A stretch of 64,000 nucleotides of DNA from positions 925,501 to 989,500 of the forward strand of contig NC_013385.1 in assembly GCF_000024605.1 (NCBI RefSeq). Reading direction: 5' to 3'. The notes under the pieces were generated by a model. It made no database searches, was not told the DNA's origin, and was given only the letters and a program-made list of their open reading frames with translations. The DNA comes from Ammonifex degensii KC4 (GTDB taxonomy: Bacteria > Bacillota > Desulfotomaculia > Desulfotomaculales > Ammonificaceae). How positions within the stretch are numbered: the first letter of the stretch is position 1; every line of letters begins with the position of its first letter. Position numbers and translations under genes: made by a program. Of the stretch, positions 93 to 11,685 are shown piece after piece.

Positions 93-1539
93 AAAGGCAA
101 CAAGAAATTTAAGGATTCCGGCGAACGGTCGTTTGCAGTCCAGACACCATACTCCCGGAAGCCAGATTTTAAACCCACGAAACGGGTTTGTAGCCTACCT
201 ATGAGGGATTGAAACAGCAGCCGCTGGCCTTCCGGGACGGCGAAGAGCATCGTTTGTAGCCTACCTATGAGGGATTGAAACCGGAGCGGGAACTCCGGGC
301 GGTCCGGGAGTGCTGGGGTTTGTAGCCTACCTATGAGGGATTGAAACATAGCCTACCTGCCCACACTACCCTATATCACCACTGTTTGTAGCCTACCTAT
401 GAGGGATTGAAACACATACGAAGCGTCGTACGCTCCCGCCACGACGAAAGTTTGTAGCCTACCTATGAGGGATTGAAACAAGGCTCGCTGAAAATTAAGA
501 ACAGCAATACCACCGGTTTGTAGCCTACCTATGAGGGATTGAAACTCCCTATTGACGAACTCAGCTTTCCTTCCACAACAGGTTTGTAGCCTACCTATGA
601 GGGATTGAAACACGATGAACATTGGGTTGTTCGCAAGATACATGTTTAGTTTGTAGCCTACCTATGAGGGATTGAAACCTCCCCGCTTCCGCAGCTCCCT
701 CAGCAGCTGGTCGGCGTTTGTAGCCTACCTATGAGGGATTGAAACTTAGGGGATTACAAGTCGGCGAGGGAATTCGCCCTGAAGTTTGTAGCCTACCTAT
801 GAGGGATTGAAACGTGAAGGAGGTGGCGTAGGACTTTTGCTCCACCTGTGTTTGTAGCCTACCTATGAGGGATTGAAACCGGGCGATCCTGACGGCGGTG
901 GACAACTTCTCTACAAGTTTGTAGCCTACCTATGAGGGATTGAAACAGAGTTTTCAAAGCTGAAACGCAGTTTGGCGAGGCTGTTTGTAGCCTACCTATG
1001 AGGGATTGAAACCCAGCGACCGCGTTATCGGTCTGGACGACTACAGCGGTTTGTAGCCTACCTATGAGGGATTGAAACGTAGAGGATTTTATTGTGCCGC
1101 TGATTGTACCGCGGTTTGTAGCCTACCTATGAGGGATTGAAACTGGCGGCCACGACGCGGTCCTCGCCGACTTCGGCAGGTTTGTAGCCTACCTATGAGG
1201 GATTGAAACCCTTCTTCCAGGGGCAGAACTTTCCTAACGGTAAAAGTTTGTAGCCTACCTATGAGGGATTGAAACAGCCGAGCAGTTCGTACGCGGAAAG
1301 CGAAGCTATAAGTTTGTAGCCTACCTATGAGGGATTGAAACTCGAAGACCTGTGCCGGGAAGTCCTCATCGCGGAGCAGTTTGTAGCCTACCTATGAGGG
1401 ATTGAAACGGTGGTTTTAAAACGGTAGGTCTGAAAGGTCTTTGTGTTTGTAGCCTACCTATGAGGGATTGAAACGCCCAGGCAAAGCCATACCTAGGCAA
1501 GACATGGCTGTTTGTAGCCTACCTATGAGGGATTGAAAC

Positions 1540-1676
1540 GGATCAGCGCCATGAGACCGGCGGTCAGCACCGGCCCCAGGCCGGGAATGCTGCGGCACCA
1601 ACGCCCAATGTCGTATTGCAGAGTGAACTTGTCGAGGATGCGGGCTATCTCATCCTCGACCTCGGCCCACTTCCTG
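1540..1676 (-). other. 137-bp outlier interval in the array, transposase-like coding fragment
   Basis: This inter-repeat interval is nearly four times normal length and holds no recognisable repeat remnant. On the minus strand it is open throughout and encodes a peptide containing RSIPGLGPVLTAGLMALI, which resembles the helix-hairpin-helix (Transposase_20) region of IS110/IS116-family transposases. It has no start or stop of its own, so it looks like captured DNA and not a gene. Confidence 0.6.
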
Positions 1677-2903
1677 GTTTGTAGCCTACCTATGAGGGAT
1701 TGAAACATTCTGGTGGTGGGAAACCGAAAGCTTTCCTAAAGGGTTTGTAGCCTACCTATGAGGGATTGAAACGCCGACGCCTCAGCAGGAACTCCACACC
1801 CTCCCGCGTTTGTAGCCTACCTATGAGGGATTGAAACCCTTTGCAGGCGGCGGCGTTCGCCGCCCCTGCCTTCGGTTTGTAGCCTACCTATGAGGGATTG
1901 AAACCCAGGTCTATAAGAAGCAGCGCCACTTCGTCAGGATGTTTGTAGCCTACCTATGAGGGATTGAAACATTACGGTACCATCCTCCAGCTCGGTCTCA
2001 CAAAGACCGGTTTGTAGCCTACCTATGAGGGATTGAAACCTGTCAGCGAACAGCGCGTGGTGCGGGAAAGTCGGCGGTTTGTAGCCTACCTATGAGGGAT
2101 TGAAACCCGCACCTGCCGTTATCCGGGGGGGTTCACCCAGAAGGTTTGTAGCCTACCTATGAGGGATTGAAACGAAGTAGCCCAGGGGATGCCGGGGGCC
2201 GTGAAGCGTTTGTAGCCTACCTATGAGGGATTGAAACGTATGTGCACCTATTATCTTGGCGGAGTTTGCGAACGTTTGTAGCCTACCTATGAGGGATTGA
2301 AACCAGAGAGCGCTCCAAACTGTCATCCAAAACGCCCACAGTTTGTAGCCTACCTATGAGGGATTGAAACGGGCAGCGGTCACGAACACCATGCCAGCGG
2401 GAACCTGTTTGTAGCCTACCTATGAGGGATTGAAACAACCCGATCTCCTCTAATTCCCCGGGATCGGGCTCGGTTTGTAGCCTACCTATGAGGGATTGAA
2501 ACCTATCAGCACGACCGCCCTGGTGAGGTTGTGGCCGAGTTTGTAGCCTACCTATGAGGGATTGAAACCCGTCCCGGCGAACCGGGCCTGGCTGATCCAG
2601 CAGGGTTTGTAGCCTACCTATGAGGGATTGAAACGCCGAGCACTACGTCTAGGAAGCTGAAAACGTAGTGGGTTTGTAGCCTACCTATGAGGGATTGAAA
2701 CGAGAGCACCGAGGGGCATAGCTACAGCCTTTCCAGGCTGGTTTGTAGCCTACCTATGAGGGATTGAAACGTGCCCTGCGCTGCCGGGTTCCCCGCGGAG
2801 TTGCAGGTTTGTAGCCTACCTATGAGGGATTGAAACCGCACAGTAAGAAGGTAATAATCTAGTTCCTTCACGCGTTTGTAGCCTACCTATGAGGGATTGA
2901 AAC

Positions 2904-3042
2904 GCGAATGATTCAAGAGCGGAATATAATCTTCCGTTGACAAACCGGGCAAGGTATATCAGGTGCGTAGCTGCGGTGGCTTTCACTGGCGGTATCTCTC
3001 CTATAGTGCAGATAGGGGCTACCTGGATTTTGGGTGATGCAG
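2904..3042 (+). other. 139-bp outlier interval in the array, possible coding fragment
   Basis: This is the second abnormally long interval. The plus-strand frame starting at its first base is open for all 46 codons and encodes a peptide with a hydrophobic stretch (VAAVAFTGGISPIVQIGATW). No repeat remnant is visible. It is probably a captured fragment of a mobile-element gene, but I do not recognise the family. Confidence 0.45.
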
Positions 3043-4257
3043 GTTTGTAGCCTACCTATGAGGGATTGAAACGGCCACCCGGGGGCCCACCACGCGCCCC
3101 ACTTCCCCGTTTGTAGCCTACCTATGAGGGATTGAAACCAAGCTTGGTAAGCAGTACATTCATGCCGTTGACGAGTTTGTAGCCTACCTATGAGGGATTG
3201 AAACGTTAGCTAGGGCCATAACAACAGCCAGGCAGAGGAAGGTTTGTAGCCTACCTATGAGGGATTGAAACGCACCGGCGGGCACCTGGCCCTGGCGGCC
3301 TACTACTGTTTGTAGCCTACCTATGAGGGATTGAAACCCAGGTAGGTCTCCGTCGGCTGCAGGAAAAGCTTGCGGTTTGTAGCCTACCTATGAGGGATTG
3401 AAACCGGTTGTCTGCTACCGCGTCGCACGAGCCTCACCCCGCGTTTGTAGCCTACCTATGAGGGATTGAAACGCTAAAGGCGAGAGTCTGCGGTCGATAG
3501 CCCGTGCTGTTTGTAGCCTACCTATGAGGGATTGAAACAACTGGTAGGTTGGCCGCAGATACGCGTTCCCATCTGGTTTGTAGCCTACCTATGAGGGATT
3601 GAAACTTCTCCTCCCTTCCCGTTTTTTCCTGGGGCATTCCGTTTGTAGCCTACCTATGAGGGATTGAAACAGGAATCCGAGACTCCGAACGGCAGGTGCG
3701 TGATCAGTTTGTAGCCTACCTATGAGGGATTGAAACTCCCTGCCTCCCAGCAGCGCCGGGGAACAACAGACCTGTTTGTAGCCTACCTATGAGGGATTGA
3801 AACTCCACCACGGCCCTCTTCAGCTCCGGGTCGGCAGTGGTTTGTAGCCTACCTATGAGGGATTGAAACACAACCGCGCCGTGCCCCCGCTGGCCATCCT
3901 GGTCGGGTTTGTAGCCTACCTATGAGGGATTGAAACGCGCCCGCAGGTCGCCGGGCCTGACGCCGTCGCCGTCCGTTTGTAGCCTACCTATGAGGGATTG
4001 AAACACCGCCATACTCTCTCCCCCTTTTTAGTTTTGGCCCGTTTGTAGCCTACCTATGAGGGATTGAAACGGACCAGCCGTTCGCCAGCGCTTCGTGCAG
4101 CACCTGTTTGTAGCCTACCTATGAGGGATTGAAACAAGACTGCTACCGCTCGGTTAGGAAGGACTTGGCAGAAACGAATGACCAACAGCAAGTAGGGGGG
4201 CATAGATGAGTAAAGCATGGTAGCAAAATCGAAACAGTTATCACGGAGGGAAACCCT

Positions 4258-5292
4258 ATGAGAAATAAACAATACGAATGGCATTTGAAAGCTCTCACTG
4301 ATATCTGGACTGGCGACGTCGATCGAGAAAGTAAGCGGCTCATCCTAACAGGCCTTTTGGGCTCCATCCGCTGGTGGTTCGAGGTGCTGGTGCGAGGACT
4401 GGGGGGAAAAGCGTGCGACCCTACGGTAGATGGTGTGCGCTGTCCGGATGAAAAAGGCCATCGTTGTGTGGTGTGCAAACTTTTCGGCTGCACCGGCTGG
4501 GCCCGCAAGTTCCGGCTGATGGTGTTGAGTGAGAATGGGGACATCATTCAAAACCGGATTCAGGCTGGCCAGACCTTCATCTTGCGTTTTATCCCCCTGC
4601 GCCCCATCCACGACGAGGAATGGTGCCTACTGGACGCTACTTTGCGCCTGATTGCCAACTACGGTGCCATGGGTGGAAAGACAGTGTTCAAGCCGTCTGA
4701 CGAAGAGGGGCGAGAGCGTGTCCATCATCATCAGGATTTTGGCATCGTGCAATATGTGCAAGGCCCAAAGGACTGGAAATGCACGAAGACGCTTGAAGAC
4801 ATCAAGGCTTACGTAACCGGCAGCCACTGGCGCCAGGTGCCTCATTCGTACCGAGACTCTCAGGGCCGCGAGCACGACTTCTCCTGGGCCTCGTTGCAAA
4901 ACTTCTGGTGCGTGAAGGGGCGGTATCTGGCGAGGCAGGATGCAAACACAAGTTCGTTCAATTTCGTTATTGGCCGTCCAGAGCCCAAAAACGTGTCGTC
5001 TCAAGGCGATTCCTGGCTTGCTGGAAAGCGCCCTGACCGACAGCGTAATGTCGAGCCTGAGAGCAAGAAAGTTTTCAGTTTCAAAGAGCCCGAGGCCGCA
5101 CGCCGGACCTTCGGCTTTGTGCAGGATAAGGAGGGGTTCTCTCCGATATTACAAAAGTTGGAAATCCTAAGAGATGGCGACGGAGATGGGAGACAGCCAG
5201 ATCCAGTATGGAGTGATTTCGATCCTGACACAGAATTTATGAAGGGCAACCGGATATTGAAAGAACTGTTTAGCAGGAGGGAAGGAGAATGA
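4258..5292 (+). CDS. cmr1: Type III RAMP protein Cmr1 (Cas7 group)
   Basis: This is a subunit of the cytoplasmic type III effector complex and, by family knowledge, caps the 3' end of the crRNA. Evidence in the 344-residue protein is the N-terminal LKALTDIWTGD strand, the Cmr1 signature TGLLGSIRWWFE at residues 31-42, then VRGLGG and a cysteine cluster leading to LFGCTGWARKFRL (about residues 75-86), as in the family. ATG 4258 has a GGAGGG Shine-Dalgarno 7 nt upstream. It is first in a six-gene operon and overlaps the next gene by ATGA. No clear promoter was found in the 122 bp after the array, so read-through from the array is possible. Family assignment is firm. Confidence 0.9.
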   Translation: MRNKQYEWHLKALTDIWTGDVDRESKRLILTGLLGSIRWWFEVLVRGLGGKACDPTVDGVRCPDEKGHRCVVCKLFGCTGWARKFRLMVLSENGDIIQNRIQAGQTFILRFIPLRPIHDEEWCLLDATLRLIANYGAMGGKTVFKPSDEEGRERVHHHQDFGIVQYVQGPKDWKCTKTLEDIKAYVTGSHWRQVPHSYRDSQGREHDFSWASLQNFWCVKGRYLARQDANTSSFNFVIGRPEPKNVSSQGDSWLAGKRPDRQRNVEPESKKVFSFKEPEAARRTFGFVQDKEGFSPILQKLEILRDGDGDGRQPDPVWSDFDPDTEFMKGNRILKELFSRREGE

Positions 5293-6380
5293 CGTGGGAT
5301 TACTACATCCACGTTGAGCAAAAGATAGAGGCGGAGACAAGTAGTCTTTCTCAATTGGAAGCCCGACTTGAGACAGCTAATCGGCGAGAACGACGGCAGG
5401 TCAGAGGACAGATCGAGGAGAAAGTAAATAACACCTGTGAAGCCTGGAGGCAAGATATAGGGGATGACCTAGTACGAACACTCGTTACGCAGCTCTTGGA
5501 TGATGTTTCTACATGGTGGTTCGTCGAACGATTTCCATGTAAAGAAGAAGCTCGGACAAAGGTCTACATACCAATTACTCAGAAATTGACCATAAGTGAT
5601 CCAGGTAAAGTTTGTGAGGATATTGACTTCCGTCTAGATTTCCAAAACCTGCCATTACGGAATTGGCTCGCCTTTCAAGTAGACTTCGAACTCCTCACCC
5701 CCTGGTACTCCAAAGACGACCGGGTTTTTCACATCCTGGACAACCCACTGCGCAAGGATCGGGTGTTCGGGGTGCCTTTTATGGCTGCCTCTTCCTGGAA
5801 GGGGATGCTGCGCTGGGTTTTTCTACTCGTCAACAAGCTGATTGGTCCCGAGCAGGAAAAGGACGAAGCTAAGAGGGAAAAAGCGAAGGCAATGGAATTG
5901 CACCTTTTCGGCAACGAGAAGGACGAAGAGAAAAATTTCCACCAGGGTGCGCTGGTCTTCTACCCTACCTGGTTCAACAAAATTGGCTTTGAGGTTATCA
6001 ACCCCCACAGCCGGGAGCGCCGCGCCGGAACGAAGCCTATCTACTACGAGGTAGTGCCACCCGGAGCGAAAGGCACGCTTTCGCTCCTTTATGCTCCCTG
6101 GCCGGGGATGAAGCCGTCGGCGAATCCCAGGGATGTCCTGCCAGGACTGCTGGAAGCCATCGAGACTCTGCTCACCACCTACGGCATCTCGGCCAAACGA
6201 ACCGTGGGCTGGGGTACCGCAAAGATTCTGGAATGGCGGGTCTATCGGAAAGGGAAGGAGAGTCAAGGAGCGACCCGAGGAGAGTGGGAAAAAGAAAAAG
6301 CTGAAAGCAAAAAGGAGTTTTGGTACTTTTTCTGGGAGCATAAAGTGTTACCTCTGCTTGGGGAGGAATGTGTCTCATGA
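5289..6380 (+). CDS. cmr6: Cmr6-like RAMP protein of the type III effector
   Basis: This is a Cas7-group RAMP expected near the 3' end of the crRNA in the effector backbone. The 363-residue protein has a charged, helix-rich N-terminal extension of about 130 residues. The RAMP core follows, with FGVPFMAASSWKGMLRW, LFGNEKDE, GALVFYPTWF, VINPHSRERR (matching the family's 'NPH' segment) and a C-terminal glycine-rich loop ISAKRTVGWGTAKI. The start is fixed by an ATGA overlap with cmr1 and a strong AGGAGGGAAGGAG upstream. The N-terminal extension is longer than usual for Cmr6 and may be subtype specific. It could be named simply a Cas7-group RAMP, since the Cmr6 label rests on motifs seen by eye. 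Confidence 0.72.
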   Translation: MTWDYYIHVEQKIEAETSSLSQLEARLETANRRERRQVRGQIEEKVNNTCEAWRQDIGDDLVRTLVTQLLDDVSTWWFVERFPCKEEARTKVYIPITQKLTISDPGKVCEDIDFRLDFQNLPLRNWLAFQVDFELLTPWYSKDDRVFHILDNPLRKDRVFGVPFMAASSWKGMLRWVFLLVNKLIGPEQEKDEAKREKAKAMELHLFGNEKDEEKNFHQGALVFYPTWFNKIGFEVINPHSRERRAGTKPIYYEVVPPGAKGTLSLLYAPWPGMKPSANPRDVLPGLLEAIETLLTTYGISAKRTVGWGTAKILEWRVYRKGKESQGATRGEWEKEKAESKKEFWYFFWEHKVLPLLGEECVS

Positions 6381-9358
6381 GCAGTACCTTCCCTCCAGCC
6401 GAAATCTTACACCAACGCCGGCCTTTGCTCCTAGCCATGGAAGCCATCGGCTGGTTCCACATGGTTGGCAAGGCTCGCGCCGAGTTCCTACGCCGGCACG
6501 GCGGCGAGAACAATGGCTACGACGAGCGCCGGTGGCATCAGCAGGAAACGCCGCCCTTCCCCTGGGATGACCTGCTGGATTGGGTTCGGAGGCTGTATGG
6601 CGCTAGGATTCCTGTTGATGCCTGGCCGAGTACCTTTGCTGCCTTCACCGAACAACATGCAGAGCGCAACCCCGGCCTGTTGGGCCTGCTTCAGGCCGCG
6701 CATGGCATCGTTTCAGGTGTAGAAAAGAACCTCCCAGCTTCCACATCGCGCTACCTGAACCAAACCACCCTTCACATGTGGCTCTCCTCCCCCTGGGGCC
6801 ACCCCAAGCGAAACCTTTTGGCTGACCCGCCGGAAATTCTGGCGCCTCACGGGTGGCAACAGCTCGTGGCGGAAATTCGCCGCGTGCTGGAGGAACTGCG
6901 CGATCTCGGCACGAAACGCGTGCAAGATGTGGCTCTGTGGCGACGCTGGCGGGAGGCGGCCATCGGTGAGGGTTCCTTCATCCGCCGGACGTTTCTTTCT
7001 ACCCTGGCCGAGACACGCCTGCCCAACAACGATGTAACCCTTTGGGACCAGTCCTACGTGGCCGCGGCGCTGTTCAAGAGCGCGGTAGCAGGGGCGTTGC
7101 TGAATAGCAGTTTCCCTTGGACCGACAGCGGCATCAAAAACAATACCCGCTGGCGGCTGCTCACCGTGGCCTTAGGCACCGAGCACTACGAGGCCAGGGC
7201 GGTAAAGATCGGCGACTGGACCAGCGTCCAGAGCGCGATCGAGGAGTTCTTCGGTCAGGTGGCCCAACTGGTGGAGGTGGACCTGGCCGTGGGCTCGCTG
7301 CTCTACCGGGACAACAGCGTGGCCGTCTTCTCCTTCCCCGGCGAGCGGTTTGATGAGACCGTGCCCGCTGGTTGGTTGAGCGGATGGGAAAACTGGCTAC
7401 AAAACCAGGCCGAAGCAATCGCCCACGATCTGAACCTGGAAACCCCGCCCCATGTGCACCTGAGCAAACCCACCCGCTCCCTTGTGCCACTGGTAAAAGA
7501 GCGCAGGGAAGCCTTGCGCAAGACTGCCGTTCCCGTGCATAAGACCTGGAATGTGAACTGGACGGTCCCCGGCGAGCTCCAGGGTCATGTCTGCCCCGTG
7601 TGTCGGGTGCGCTTGAACGGCGATCCTACCAACAAGGGCAAACCCTGCGCGGTATGCCGCCAGCGCCGCCACCACCGCCGCGATGCCTGGCTACAGGGAC
7701 AACTGGGCTACGACACCATCTGGTTTGAGGAAGTGGCCGACCGCAACGGCCGCCTGGCCTTGCTCACCTTCTCGTTGGACCTGGGAGATTGGTTGAACGG
7801 CGAACGGGTGGATAGCCTCCGGGCCCAGGCGATTCCGGAATGGGTGCGATTCAATCCCGTACTGGACGTCACTGCCAATCCAATAGACCCTCAAGTGGCT
7901 CACGAAAGCCTAAGGGCTTATGTTCGTGACCGACTTCTTTCCTTCAACCCAAACGACCTGGTTCTACGAAACCTTCAAGAAGGCTATCGACACGAAGGCG
8001 ACTGGCCAACCTTCTTCCACAAGATCGTCGAAGACCGCGCTGATGCACCGAAGTGGGGAGAGTTGGACGACGACCAGCGCGCTGCCTGGTTGGCGCATCA
8101 ACTCTTCCGCAAGCTCCCCTCTCCCGGGCGGGTCTACCGCTTCTGGCGGGAGGCGGAGGAATTCTTCACCGATTTGCTGCGGGAGTTCCGCCAGATCGCA
8201 GCGCGCAGCGACAATCCTTGGCGGGTGCGACGCTTGGTGCTGGTTCCGGATGACAATAGCGGTTGGCGAAACCTCACACTTTACAATGGCCGCTGGCAGG
8301 GACGGCAGATCAGCCTGGTGTATGTGCGGGAGATGAAGGGCTTCATGACAGCATTCAATCTCACACGGCTCTTATGGCCGGAAGACAAGAAAGACGCTTT
8401 GAAAGGGATCCAGATCTCGCTGGAAGATGAAGATGCGCCAGGCCAGGGCCGTGATATGACCGTAACCCAAGTGCGCGAGCTTCGCCAGCCCTACGCTCAC
8501 CTGGGTGTCTATCACCCAGTGATGCCGGTAGAACTTTCTCCCCTGCGCTTCCGCGTGCTGGTACCGTTGGAGGCAGCCTCAGAGTGCGTCGACCTGGCGG
8601 TGGAGTGGTGGCGGGAGCGCTTTGCCCGCGTGTGGGACCGCCTGCCCCTGCGGGTGGGAGTGATCGCTTTTCCTCGTCTCGTTCCCTACCAGGCGGTGGT
8701 GGAGGCTGCTCGGAATGTAGAAGACACGTTAGCCGCCTCTGAGGAGACTTGGTGCGTACAGGAAGTGGAACGGCGGGCGGGAGTGGTCGCTCTGCGCCTG
8801 CGTCGTCAAGATGGCCGCGAAACGATGCGAATCGTGCCGGTCACCATGCCTGATGGACGGGAGGATGTGTTTTACCTGTATGTGGCTGTGGAAGACCGAT
8901 CCCTGCGCTTCCGACGGGACTTTCAGCATCCTCATGGCCAGGTCTACCGCCACGTGGCCGACCTGCGACCGGGCGACGGCATTCGGGTGATCCCCTCGCG
9001 GGCAAAGACGCTTTTCCTGGAGAGCACGGCTGCACGCTTCGATACCTCGAAGCCGAGGTATCTTGAAGACTGGACGCAGATGCGCCGGGTCTGGGCGCTC
9101 CTGCAGCGGGTGGCGCCCAGCCAGACAGCCCTACAGCGCCTGCGGAGCGAACTGGCGCGCTTAGAGCGCGATTGGCAATCGCCCGACGGGCAGCAGGCTG
9201 CCTCGGATGACCTCTGGCGCGATACTCTGCGCGCGTTGTTAGCACATCATCTTGAAGTCAAAGGCGCAGCTTTAGAGACGCTTACCGAGGCAGCTGTGCA
9301 GGGCACGCTTCAGTGGGCGATGGACTGGCACATGACCGTATTGAAGGAAACCATATAA
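6377..9358 (+). CDS. csx11: Csx11-like Cas10 large subunit, apparently catalytically degenerate
   Basis: This is the large subunit of the type III complex, 993 residues. Visible features are an N-terminal segment FHMVGKARAEFL (H28), where HD-nuclease Cas10 proteins have HDxGK, a zinc ribbon C406-x2-C409 and C424-x2-C427, and a palm-like strand LLTFSLDLGDWLNG (D468, D471). A second palm-like region near residues 722-735 has the expected GGDD loop replaced by RVLVPLEAA. ATG 6377 is preferred over 6368 because GGAGGA then sits 9 nt upstream and the start overlaps the previous stop as ATGA. Loss of the cyclase residues with extreme divergence is the published hallmark of subtype III-C (Csx11). 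Absence of HD and GGDD is seen, and loss of activity is inferred. Confidence 0.75.
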   Translation: MSSTFPPAEILHQRRPLLLAMEAIGWFHMVGKARAEFLRRHGGENNGYDERRWHQQETPPFPWDDLLDWVRRLYGARIPVDAWPSTFAAFTEQHAERNPGLLGLLQAAHGIVSGVEKNLPASTSRYLNQTTLHMWLSSPWGHPKRNLLADPPEILAPHGWQQLVAEIRRVLEELRDLGTKRVQDVALWRRWREAAIGEGSFIRRTFLSTLAETRLPNNDVTLWDQSYVAAALFKSAVAGALLNSSFPWTDSGIKNNTRWRLLTVALGTEHYEARAVKIGDWTSVQSAIEEFFGQVAQLVEVDLAVGSLLYRDNSVAVFSFPGERFDETVPAGWLSGWENWLQNQAEAIAHDLNLETPPHVHLSKPTRSLVPLVKERREALRKTAVPVHKTWNVNWTVPGELQGHVCPVCRVRLNGDPTNKGKPCAVCRQRRHHRRDAWLQGQLGYDTIWFEEVADRNGRLALLTFSLDLGDWLNGERVDSLRAQAIPEWVRFNPVLDVTANPIDPQVAHESLRAYVRDRLLSFNPNDLVLRNLQEGYRHEGDWPTFFHKIVEDRADAPKWGELDDDQRAAWLAHQLFRKLPSPGRVYRFWREAEEFFTDLLREFRQIAARSDNPWRVRRLVLVPDDNSGWRNLTLYNGRWQGRQISLVYVREMKGFMTAFNLTRLLWPEDKKDALKGIQISLEDEDAPGQGRDMTVTQVRELRQPYAHLGVYHPVMPVELSPLRFRVLVPLEAASECVDLAVEWWRERFARVWDRLPLRVGVIAFPRLVPYQAVVEAARNVEDTLAASEETWCVQEVERRAGVVALRLRRQDGRETMRIVPVTMPDGREDVFYLYVAVEDRSLRFRRDFQHPHGQVYRHVADLRPGDGIRVIPSRAKTLFLESTAARFDTSKPRYLEDWTQMRRVWALLQRVAPSQTALQRLRSELARLERDWQSPDGQQAASDDLWRDTLRALLAHHLEVKGAALETLTEAAVQGTLQWAMDWHMTVLKETI

Positions 9359-9371
9359 AGGGGGCAAGACC

Positions 9372-10436
9372 ATGGCGAGTTACGAGAAATTTCTCCAGGT
9401 TGGTCTGGCGCTGGATCCCATCCATGTGGGGGCCGGCGGTGCCCGCATCGGCCGGGTGGACCTGACCATCGTCCGCGACCCGGTTACCCAGGTGCCCAAG
9501 ATCCCAGGCTCCAGCCTGGCCGGCGTGTACCGGACCTATACAGCGATGCATTACGAGGACGAACGCCAAAAGCAAATTCGACAGGCTGCACAACCCCGGC
9601 AGCAGTTCCAAGGTCGACAAAAACCTTTCTATCCCGATTGTGCCGGCTTGGGGCTTGACCAAAACCGGGGGCATTGCCGCCAGCCCGACTGCCCCGTGTG
9701 CACGGTCTTTGGCTTTGCCGCAGGAAGTGGGCAAAGTGGCGGTTTTGCCGGACTGGCCGCCTTTACCGACGCCCACGTGCTGCTCTTGCCGGTACCCACC
9801 CGCCAGGGACCGATGTGGGTGACCTGCCCGATGGCGCTCCGACTGATTGGGCTGGAGGTCGGCGGCGTGGATGAAAACGCAGTCTATCTGGAAAACTCCT
9901 CCGACAATCGGCTCAACCTGGGGTGGCTTCTGTTGCCGGTGAAGCCATGCGAACAAATGAACGCGGTCACCAGTCAGTTGCGAAGTTTGACCATCCCTGA
10001 ATATATCTGCAACCGCCTGGCTCTGGTACCGGACCGGCTCTTTGCCCATATCGTCAACAGCAACCTGGAGGTGCGCACCTCCGTCTCCATCAACCCCGAA
10101 ACGGGAGCGGCCGAAGAGCACGCGCTGTTCTCTTATGAAGCGCTCCCGCGCACGACGGTGCTCGTCTGGGAGGTCATCGCCAAGAACCCTACTCATTTCA
10201 ACATAGGTGGGCGGCCAATTACCGCGGTGTCCAACCCGGCAAATGTCTATCAGGTTGCCACACAAGCCCATCCCTACCTGGAACACCTGGGTATCGGCGG
10301 CATGGGTACCCGGGGCATGGGGCGGCTGAGGGTGGTTTACGCGAACCAATCACCTACCAATGAAACCGTCTCATGCAGTCTGGCTGCTTCAGAGCAGGAA
10401 ACCCCGTCCACCAGCCAGGAGGAGGGGCGGTCATGA
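9372..10436 (+). CDS. cmr4: Type III RAMP protein Cmr4 (Cas7 backbone, target RNA cleavage)
   Basis: This is the repeated backbone subunit that wraps the crRNA and, in characterised complexes, cuts target RNA at 6-nt steps. The 354-residue protein shows DPIHVGAGG near the N terminus, then GRVDLTIVRDP with D30 at the position expected for the cleavage aspartate. KIPGSSLAGVYR, CPVCTVFGF, GFAGLAAFTDA and PMWVTCPMAL follow in Cmr4 order. A Cys/His-rich stretch (CxxxxxxDQNRGHCRQPDCPVC region) may bind metal. It is somewhat longer than the usual 290-300 residues. It starts 13 bp after the Cas10 gene with AGGGGGC upstream. Retention of D30 means RNA cleavage could persist even if Cas10 is inactive. 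Confidence 0.92.
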   Translation: MASYEKFLQVGLALDPIHVGAGGARIGRVDLTIVRDPVTQVPKIPGSSLAGVYRTYTAMHYEDERQKQIRQAAQPRQQFQGRQKPFYPDCAGLGLDQNRGHCRQPDCPVCTVFGFAAGSGQSGGFAGLAAFTDAHVLLLPVPTRQGPMWVTCPMALRLIGLEVGGVDENAVYLENSSDNRLNLGWLLLPVKPCEQMNAVTSQLRSLTIPEYICNRLALVPDRLFAHIVNSNLEVRTSVSINPETGAAEEHALFSYEALPRTTVLVWEVIAKNPTHFNIGGRPITAVSNPANVYQVATQAHPYLEHLGIGGMGTRGMGRLRVVYANQSPTNETVSCSLAASEQETPSTSQEEGRS

Positions 10437-10813
10437 GGGAAACGCAAATGACCAACCTGGACATTCAATGCGCCGAGTTGGGGTACCAGTTGGCAGGCAT
10501 CAAAGACATGGGAGAGAGGATCCTTAACGCAGCCCTGACGGTGCTCGAGGAGCAGGGACCGTATGCGATGTTCCTCTATGTAAAGGCACGCCATAAGGAT
10601 GTGGCCGACCAGTTCAACCGATGTTGCGCACAATTCCTCAAAAAAATCTTCGAACGCCGTTTCTCTGGCAATGATACGGTGCTGGACGTGCTGGACATGG
10701 TCAAAAGTCTGGCCGGAAATCTAGACGACCTGCTGTTCGCCTGTGATCTCCTACGGATCGCCCTTTCCTACGCTCGTTACCACCTGAAAGTTAAGGAGGG
10801 CGGCACCTCATGA
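10433..10813 (+). CDS. cmr5: Type III small subunit Cmr5 (Cas11)
   Basis: This small all-helical protein of 126 residues forms the second filament of the type III complex beside the Cmr4 backbone. The PYAMFLYVKARHKDVADQF segment matches the central Cmr5 helix region, and position, size and helical composition fit Cas11. ATG 10433 is chosen because it overlaps the cmr4 stop (ATGA) and has GGAGGGGCGG upstream. An in-frame ATG at 10373 would overlap cmr4 by over 60 bp without a ribosome site. Small subunits diverge quickly, so the family name rests partly on context. Confidence 0.8.
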   Translation: MRETQMTNLDIQCAELGYQLAGIKDMGERILNAALTVLEEQGPYAMFLYVKARHKDVADQFNRCCAQFLKKIFERRFSGNDTVLDVLDMVKSLAGNLDDLLFACDLLRIALSYARYHLKVKEGGTS

Positions 10814-11685
10814 CCTGGACGATGTATCGCTGGGTGTGGCAGGTGGTTTCGCCTCTCCATATCGGCATGCCGCCAGCCGGTGCTCTCAACCGCACCCGCC
10901 TGTATATCCCCGCCCGGGCTTTATGGGGCGCCTTCACCGCCGAGCTGGCCCGGCGGCAAAGCACCGGCTTCCCCGGTTACCGGCAAGTAGGAAGGCAACT
11001 TCAGGAACAGGCCCGCCTGAGCTACCTTTTTCCGGCGGAAGAGGTACAGGGCCAGTGGCTCGCGTGGCTTCCCTGTTACAAGGAGGGTCAGGGCCTGGTG
11101 TGGCGGCGTGAGGATGGACAAGAAGAGGAAAACCGACGCTTCCGCCTGCGGATCCTGATCACACGTCCGGGAACGGCCATTGATCCGGCCACCGATACTG
11201 CTGCCGAAGGAACCCTGCGGGAGTTTGAACTCATCAGTTCCCGGTGGCGTCCCCTTGACGAAGGAGGCGACCCCCAACCGGTTGGCATGGTGGGATACCT
11301 CTTCTGCAAGGACCCAGCCTTGTACGAGCAGCTCGAGGAAATCCGGGAAATCTTCGTGGGAGGGGATACCCGCTACGGGCTGGGCCGCCTGCAGCGGGTG
11401 CATCTGGAGGAAGCAACCCAGTTTTTTGACTGCTCGGTGGACCTGAGCGGCAATTCGCCGAAAGTGCGCGCGAACCGTGTACTGGCTCATACGCTACTGA
11501 AAAAGGAAAATGATTCGCCTCTAGTGGGAAGCCTGGAATGCATCGCCGGCTGGGACACGGCGACGGATGGGCTCAAAGAGGGCAAATTGACCTGGGCCCC
11601 AGGATCCAGCTGGCAGGGAGACCGAGAATGTAGCATCCAGGAGGACGGATTGTGGAACGGTAATGCTGGTTCGGAGGCTTGCTGA
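10810..11685 (+). CDS. Cas5-group RAMP, Cmr3/Csx10-like
   Basis: This is the last gene of the type III operon, 291 residues. It probably binds the 5' tag of the crRNA next to Cas10, the role of Cas5-group RAMPs. Visible motifs are SPLHIGMPPAGAL, RLYIPARALWGAFTAEL, AAEGTLREFEL and a C-terminal GGDTRYGLGRLQRV glycine-rich loop followed by a W-rich tail. The AAEG...GLGR pattern is shared by Cmr3 and Csx10. Cmr3 is favoured because the other subunits are Cmr type. It overlaps cmr5 by ATGA. The operon ends here, with a hairpin terminator about 100 bp downstream. Confidence 0.7.
   Translation: MTWTMYRWVWQVVSPLHIGMPPAGALNRTRLYIPARALWGAFTAELARRQSTGFPGYRQVGRQLQEQARLSYLFPAEEVQGQWLAWLPCYKEGQGLVWRREDGQEEENRRFRLRILITRPGTAIDPATDTAAEGTLREFELISSRWRPLDEGGDPQPVGMVGYLFCKDPALYEQLEEIREIFVGGDTRYGLGRLQRVHLEEATQFFDCSVDLSGNSPKVRANRVLAHTLLKKENDSPLVGSLECIAGWDTATDGLKEGKLTWAPGSSWQGDRECSIQEDGLWNGNAGSEAC

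Follow-up and report, generated by a model that had tools for sequence, protein, structure and literature searches.

The window, a stretch of 64,000 nt from Ammonifex degensii KC4, carries at positions 4258–11685 a complete six-gene type III-C operon in the order cmr1, cmr6, csx11/cas10c, cmr4, cmr5 and cmr3, all on the plus strand (Table 1). The six subunit genes sit between a CRISPR array of 57 repeats and an unrelated gene on the opposite strand. All six frames are open, and several of the start codons overlap the preceding stop. A first-pass annotation, made from the sequence alone, had recognized the six subunits of a Cmr-type complex in one operon, which the profile matches bore out. Cmr3 and Cmr5 were assigned by PADLOC, and Cmr6 reached 34.6 bits with the NCBIfam Cmr6 model, below its cut-off of 51.1. 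The label “III-C-like” given to the system was right in its affinity but too cautious, as Cmr1, Cmr3, Cmr4, Cmr5 and Cmr6 lie together with a large subunit that passes, narrowly, the curated NCBI equivalog cut-off for Csx11. Searching the PDB by sequence with Csx11 yielded nothing meaningful. Its longest frame encodes 996 amino acids and defines the residue numbering used here; the 993 residues reported previously hold for a start codon at 6377, which is coupled to the overlapping cmr6 stop.

Table 1 Features of the type III-C locus in the window, and the first gene of a second III-C operon in the same genome.
Feature	Position	Strand	Evidence or remark
CRISPR array, 57 exact copies of a 30-nt repeat	186..4135	+	reads towards cmr1, ends 122 bases before it
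cmr1 (Cas7-group RAMP)	4258..5292	+	TIGR01894 54.9 bits, cut-off 28.65; RAMPs match
cmr6 (Cas7-group RAMP)	5289..6380	+	PADLOC Cmr6 1.4e-73
csx11/cas10c, large subunit	6368..9358	+	TIGR02682 255.4 bits, cut-off 248.95; PADLOC Cas10c 2.1e-117
H31-M32-V33-G34-K35, place of the HD dipeptide	6458..6472	+	family alignment
H112, place of the third HD ligand (Asp in four intact relatives)	6701..6703	+	family alignment
D227-Q228, Q in the place of the fourth HD ligand (His in four intact relatives)	7046..7051	+	family alignment
Cys409, Cys412, Cys427, Cys430, zinc-ribbon-like motif	7592..7657	+	each in at least 29 of 30 rows
S724-P725-L726-R727, loop replacing GGDD	8537..8548	+	hhalign and hairpin in the model
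cmr4 (backbone, target RNase)	9372..10436	+	TIGR02580 114.7 bits, cut-off 87
Cmr4 D30, cleavage aspartate	9459..9461	+	46 of 46 aligned rows
cmr5 (small subunit)	10433..10813	+	PADLOC Cmr5 5.7e-26
cmr3 (Cas5-group RAMP)	10810..11685	+	PADLOC Cmr3 1.1e-85
CorA-like membrane protein gene, first of the second III-C operon	L042:3163-4746 (C1:808162-809745)		PADLOC 1.5e-97

The cyclase site of this Csx11 is altered. When a profile of 54 Csx11 rows was aligned with one of 23 Cas10 rows (96.9% probability, E 1.4e-10), the residues SPLR fell on GGDD. The Cas10 rows had been chosen for a GGDD-type motif and came from 25 loci, minus L115 without a motif frame and L118 with a short one. The structure predicted for Csx11 from a 30-row alignment (pLDDT 90.4, pTM 0.90) resembles Csm1 overall (best Z 16.9, rmsd 4.1, 527 of 996 residues aligned within 19–995) and places SPLR as a hairpin loop between strands 719–722 and 728–733. 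The loss of the GGDD loop was thus read correctly in the first-pass annotation. The segment RVLVPLEAA that it put in the GGDD place is present at 727–735, but forms mainly the strand that follows the replacing loop. The inactivated cyclase motif of subtype III-C is hence found here, as judged from sequence. R727 is conserved in 31 and P725 in 30 of the 31 rows of the window’s clade, and none of the 54 Csx11 rows has GGDD in the loop place; the loop of L088, a distant long-branch row that scores below the family cut-off, ends in D-E. A search of the 54 rows for GGDD-like words hidden elsewhere found none in the window protein. In four clade relatives (L015, L019, L020, L026) KGDD occurs around window residue 686, some 38 residues ahead of the loop and outside the GGDD place. 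A Pfam palm2 match at C1:1611953 belongs to a GGDEF-type protein and was discarded as a Cas10 candidate.

The HD nuclease site has changed as well. The HD ligands of Lactococcus lactis Csm1 are H13, D14, D80 and H206 (PMC8964682, from a figure legend), and their equivalents in the Csx11 family alignment are H31, M32, H112 and Q228. Only the first histidine is kept, while M32 and H112 replace aspartates and Q228 a histidine, which by this alignment sets the protein apart from HD-active Cas10 with its four permuted ligands. The loss of the site had been noted earlier from HMVGK standing for HDxGK; the motif is there at 31–35, but three ligands are replaced rather than one. The profile alignment with active Cas10 proteins begins at residue 222, leaving places 31, 32 and 112 outside its range. 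The ends of the structural match (model residue 19 on Csm1 1, 250 on 228) are consistent with pairing 31 with 13 and 228 with 206, and place 112 was equated by the sequence alignment alone. When residues 1–250 were folded separately (pLDDT 87.4), the top 18 rows by Z were all Cas10 proteins (Z 11.8 to 6.8), followed by Cas3 proteins (6.0 and 5.4) and others at 4.2 or below; mostly helical models can reach Z values of about 13 by arrangement alone, so these values are not decisive. Foldseek alone gave no match to this model at E 0.001 or better. The permuted HD fold of Csx11 seems to be retained in the model though the ligands differ.

To a large part these losses fit what is published: in the available text of two studies, III-C loci lack cyclase sites and have a recognizable HD motif in half of the cases (Hoikkala 2024, PMC11229360), and III-C is counted among the subtypes with an inactivated cyclase (PMC12669027). 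Both features of this rare subtype, the missing cyclase and, in about half of the loci, the missing HD, are therefore already on record. Within III-C, the window belongs to the part without HD, and its clade has one fixed pocket (H-M, H, D-Q). No description of an alternative HD pocket fixed throughout a clade was found in the accessible portions of the open-access literature searched.

The extent of this conservation was followed in two sets of relatives. Peptide patterns from the window Csx11, one of them ending at the histidine of the HD motif, yielded 37 related loci, a set that leans to the window clade because the patterns were taken from the window protein. The HD motif is visible in 35 of them and always reads H-[M or Q]-x-G-K, with M in 34 and Q in one, a recurrence beyond chance; L008, whose frame begins only at query residue 100, and L039, whose frames are broken, do not show this part. 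A phylum-level search with the family profile, freer of this bias, covered 398 genomes and recovered 26 Csx11 frames from 23 of them. Four of the frames have the complete set of HD ligands; for two of the 26, L060 and L068, the HD motif was the sole basis of the assessment. Among all 54 Csx11 rows, the full ligand set H-D-D-H is confined to four; both the aspartate at the third site and the histidine at the fourth are missing from each of the remaining 50. Seven of these 50 nevertheless keep the HD dipeptide (L061, L062, L063, L065, L081, L085, L086), and counts of HD dipeptides may, to go by these alignments, overstate the number of active HD domains in III-C. Loss of the HD site is thus common in the family and takes several forms (HM, HN, FN, AL, or HD alone), with a minimum of three changes between HD and not-HD on a quick tree with two long branches.

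In the same quick tree, the window clade of 31 rows forms a single branch with an SH-aLRT of 100. H31, H112, D227 and Q228 are invariant in these rows; at position 32, 30 rows have M and a single row has Q. The clade rows name 11 phyla, with seven rows naming none, and the 37 related loci name 12, with five naming none. Because the four residues never vary in a clade of 31 rows and at least 11 phyla, the altered pocket is maintained and not in decay. The lowest pairwise identity across 30 clade rows is 38%, in an alignment that left out the broken or partial L008, L030, L032, L034, L035, L037, L038 and L039. Among seven blocks set by us in these rows, the relict HD region (18–245) has the highest mean conservation (0.658), and columns conserved in at least 29 rows number 58 of 228 there versus 119 of 768 elsewhere (Fisher p 0.001). 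G401, of the same family as Ammonifex degensii KC4, has a 78% identical HM-type Csx11 fragment. The distribution is patchy: in G322, from the genus of the window genome, our searches found the HNLGK type of III-C alone and not the HM type.

This conservation would be expected if the altered pocket, with H31, M32, H112, D227 and Q228, had been repurposed for a new kind of binding or catalysis that involves a different metal, a nucleotide or a nucleic acid, giving the complex a second activity. We regard this as possible but unlikely. A packing role in a structural domain predicts the same conservation, and the zinc block exceeds the HD block in its share of near-invariant columns (0.30 versus 0.25). 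Methionine and glutamine are poor ligands for a hydrolase, which counts against a catalytic pocket; a metal might still be coordinated by H31, H112 and D227, which counts against an activity limited to RNA cutting. As a tentative extension, the pseudo-HD domain might be a converted site, kept across at least 11 phyla, for sensing a ligand or for a new activity triggered by target RNA, serving as the second arm of the complex instead of cyclic oligoadenylate synthesis or DNA cutting.

No neighbor of the operon was recognized as a CARF gene, and two PADLOC CARF models searched against the whole genome matched only at C1:994.8–997.4 kb, outside the window. The earlier observation that no CARF effector lies beside the operon thus holds for adjoining genes, but the genome does have CARF effectors about 58 kb downstream, next to a Cas10 with GGED. 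They belong to a III-D-like locus (L049, C1:988.7–1005 kb) that begins at the 3′ end of the window and comprises the GGED Cas10, a Csx10-like Cas5, CARF-PDDEXK and CARF-HEPN proteins, cas3 and an array of 30 repeats identical to those of the window array. The identical repeat occurs 106 times in the genome, in three arrays (19 + 57 + 30). The intervals in the window array are 34–39 nt long in 54 of 56 cases, the remaining two measuring 137 and 139 nt, and its spacers had no match in phages and plasmids at megablast sensitivity. Having an adjoining array distinguishes this operon from III-C at large, where most loci are without arrays according to a figure legend in PMC12669027.

A further III-C operon lies in the same genome at C1 ~808–819 kb (L042). 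Like the operon in the window, it has all six subunits, a Csx11 with GGDD lost, and its own array with a near-identical repeat; it differs in having HNLGK in place of HMVGK, a Csx11 of 1282 amino acids and a CorA-like first gene. The CorA-like protein has no Pfam match and owes its name to PADLOC. Its gene was matched in three of 398 genomes, always beside III-C of the HNLGK type (in G322 in two frames), and L084, the fourth locus of that type, gave no match. Elsewhere, effectors of the CorA kind are linked to nucleotide signals. Beyond the six subunits, no gene recurs widely in the neighborhoods, the top families occurring in 6 and 5 of 54 sources. This absence is weak, as many flanks are short and the frame picker missed real genes, namely the window cmr4 and the CorA-like gene of L042.

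The III-D-like locus, with its GGED Cas10, its two CARF effector genes and its array of identical repeats, would also allow the window complex to act as a damper, cutting target RNA without signaling and thereby shortening the signal of a III-D-like Cas10 that draws on the same pool of crRNAs. We consider this rather improbable, since the sharing of crRNAs between the two loci is an assumption and a second type III arm was considered in this genome alone.

The cleavage aspartate D30 of Cmr4, already pointed out in the first-pass annotation, is conserved in all 46 rows, which represent the window and 45 of the 53 loci (L027 and L089, apparently one contig, are both counted here and in the neighbor survey), and is a residue expected of RNA-cleaving Cmr complexes. 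This argues that cutting is kept and makes a regulatory complex that binds without cutting, which the alteration of both Cas10 sites would otherwise suggest, very unlikely. Decay into a non-functional operon, as might be read from plasmid pHB5018b of Thermus thermophilus (L080), where the csx11 of a clade member with 75% identity is annotated in two pieces and IS transposases stand among the operon genes, was rejected as highly improbable given the six open frames in the window and the conservation of the altered pocket across the phyla of the clade.

Since Cmr4 D30 is kept, no extra gene recurs widely and CARF matches occur only in the III-D-like locus, the operon is best read as a type III-C effector that probably works as a crRNA-guided RNase. 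Most likely, to judge from its residues and as the first-pass annotation had also proposed, the complex would cut target RNA and make neither cyclic oligoadenylate nor HD-dependent cuts in DNA. Transcripts of the adjoining array would be loaded as crRNAs, and Cmr4 would cut the bound target RNA at regular steps of about 6 nt. Cas10c would cap the complex as its scaffold and read the flank of the target, but would neither synthesize cyclic oligoadenylate nor cut DNA. Such a complex could be a quiet arm of defense, removing invader transcripts without the toxic signaling that the III-D-like locus, with its array of the same repeat, would run in this genome.

As far as the available text of PMC11229360 describes subtype III-C, the window shares with it the large subunit Csx11, the Cmr1/3/4/5/6 set and the inactive cyclase. 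With subtype III-B (Cmr) it shares the RAMP subunits and the Cmr4 RNase, whereas Cas10 in III-B, according to the same text, bears a cyclase site almost without exception and often HD. A type III system described in the accessible part of PMC12669027 likewise has an inactive cyclase and has lost its genes for cOA effectors, but is otherwise the reverse of the window, with HD predicted to be active and the Cas7 aspartates not conserved. In the open-access literature searched, no experimental study of a III-C complex is announced. A review table, seen as an excerpt, lists cOA signaling for Methanosarcina mazei, for a strain with both I-B and III-C (PMC7694759), an entry that would tell against a purely RNA-cutting complex if it refers to III-C.

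RNA cutting alone may not protect a cell, at least against plasmids, because in Pyrococcus furiosus III-B a double mutant in HD and palm of Cmr2, with Cmr4 unmutated, abolished anti-plasmid immunity (PMC7192623). The window’s Csx11 would be a natural counterpart of this engineered mutant, yet it is conserved across phyla. A natural Cas10 altered at both sites and conserved this widely makes it testable whether RNA cutting alone immunizes or the pseudo-HD domain has a separate function. How such III-C complexes protect the cell thus becomes a testable question, and a defense by RNase activity only is not a given.
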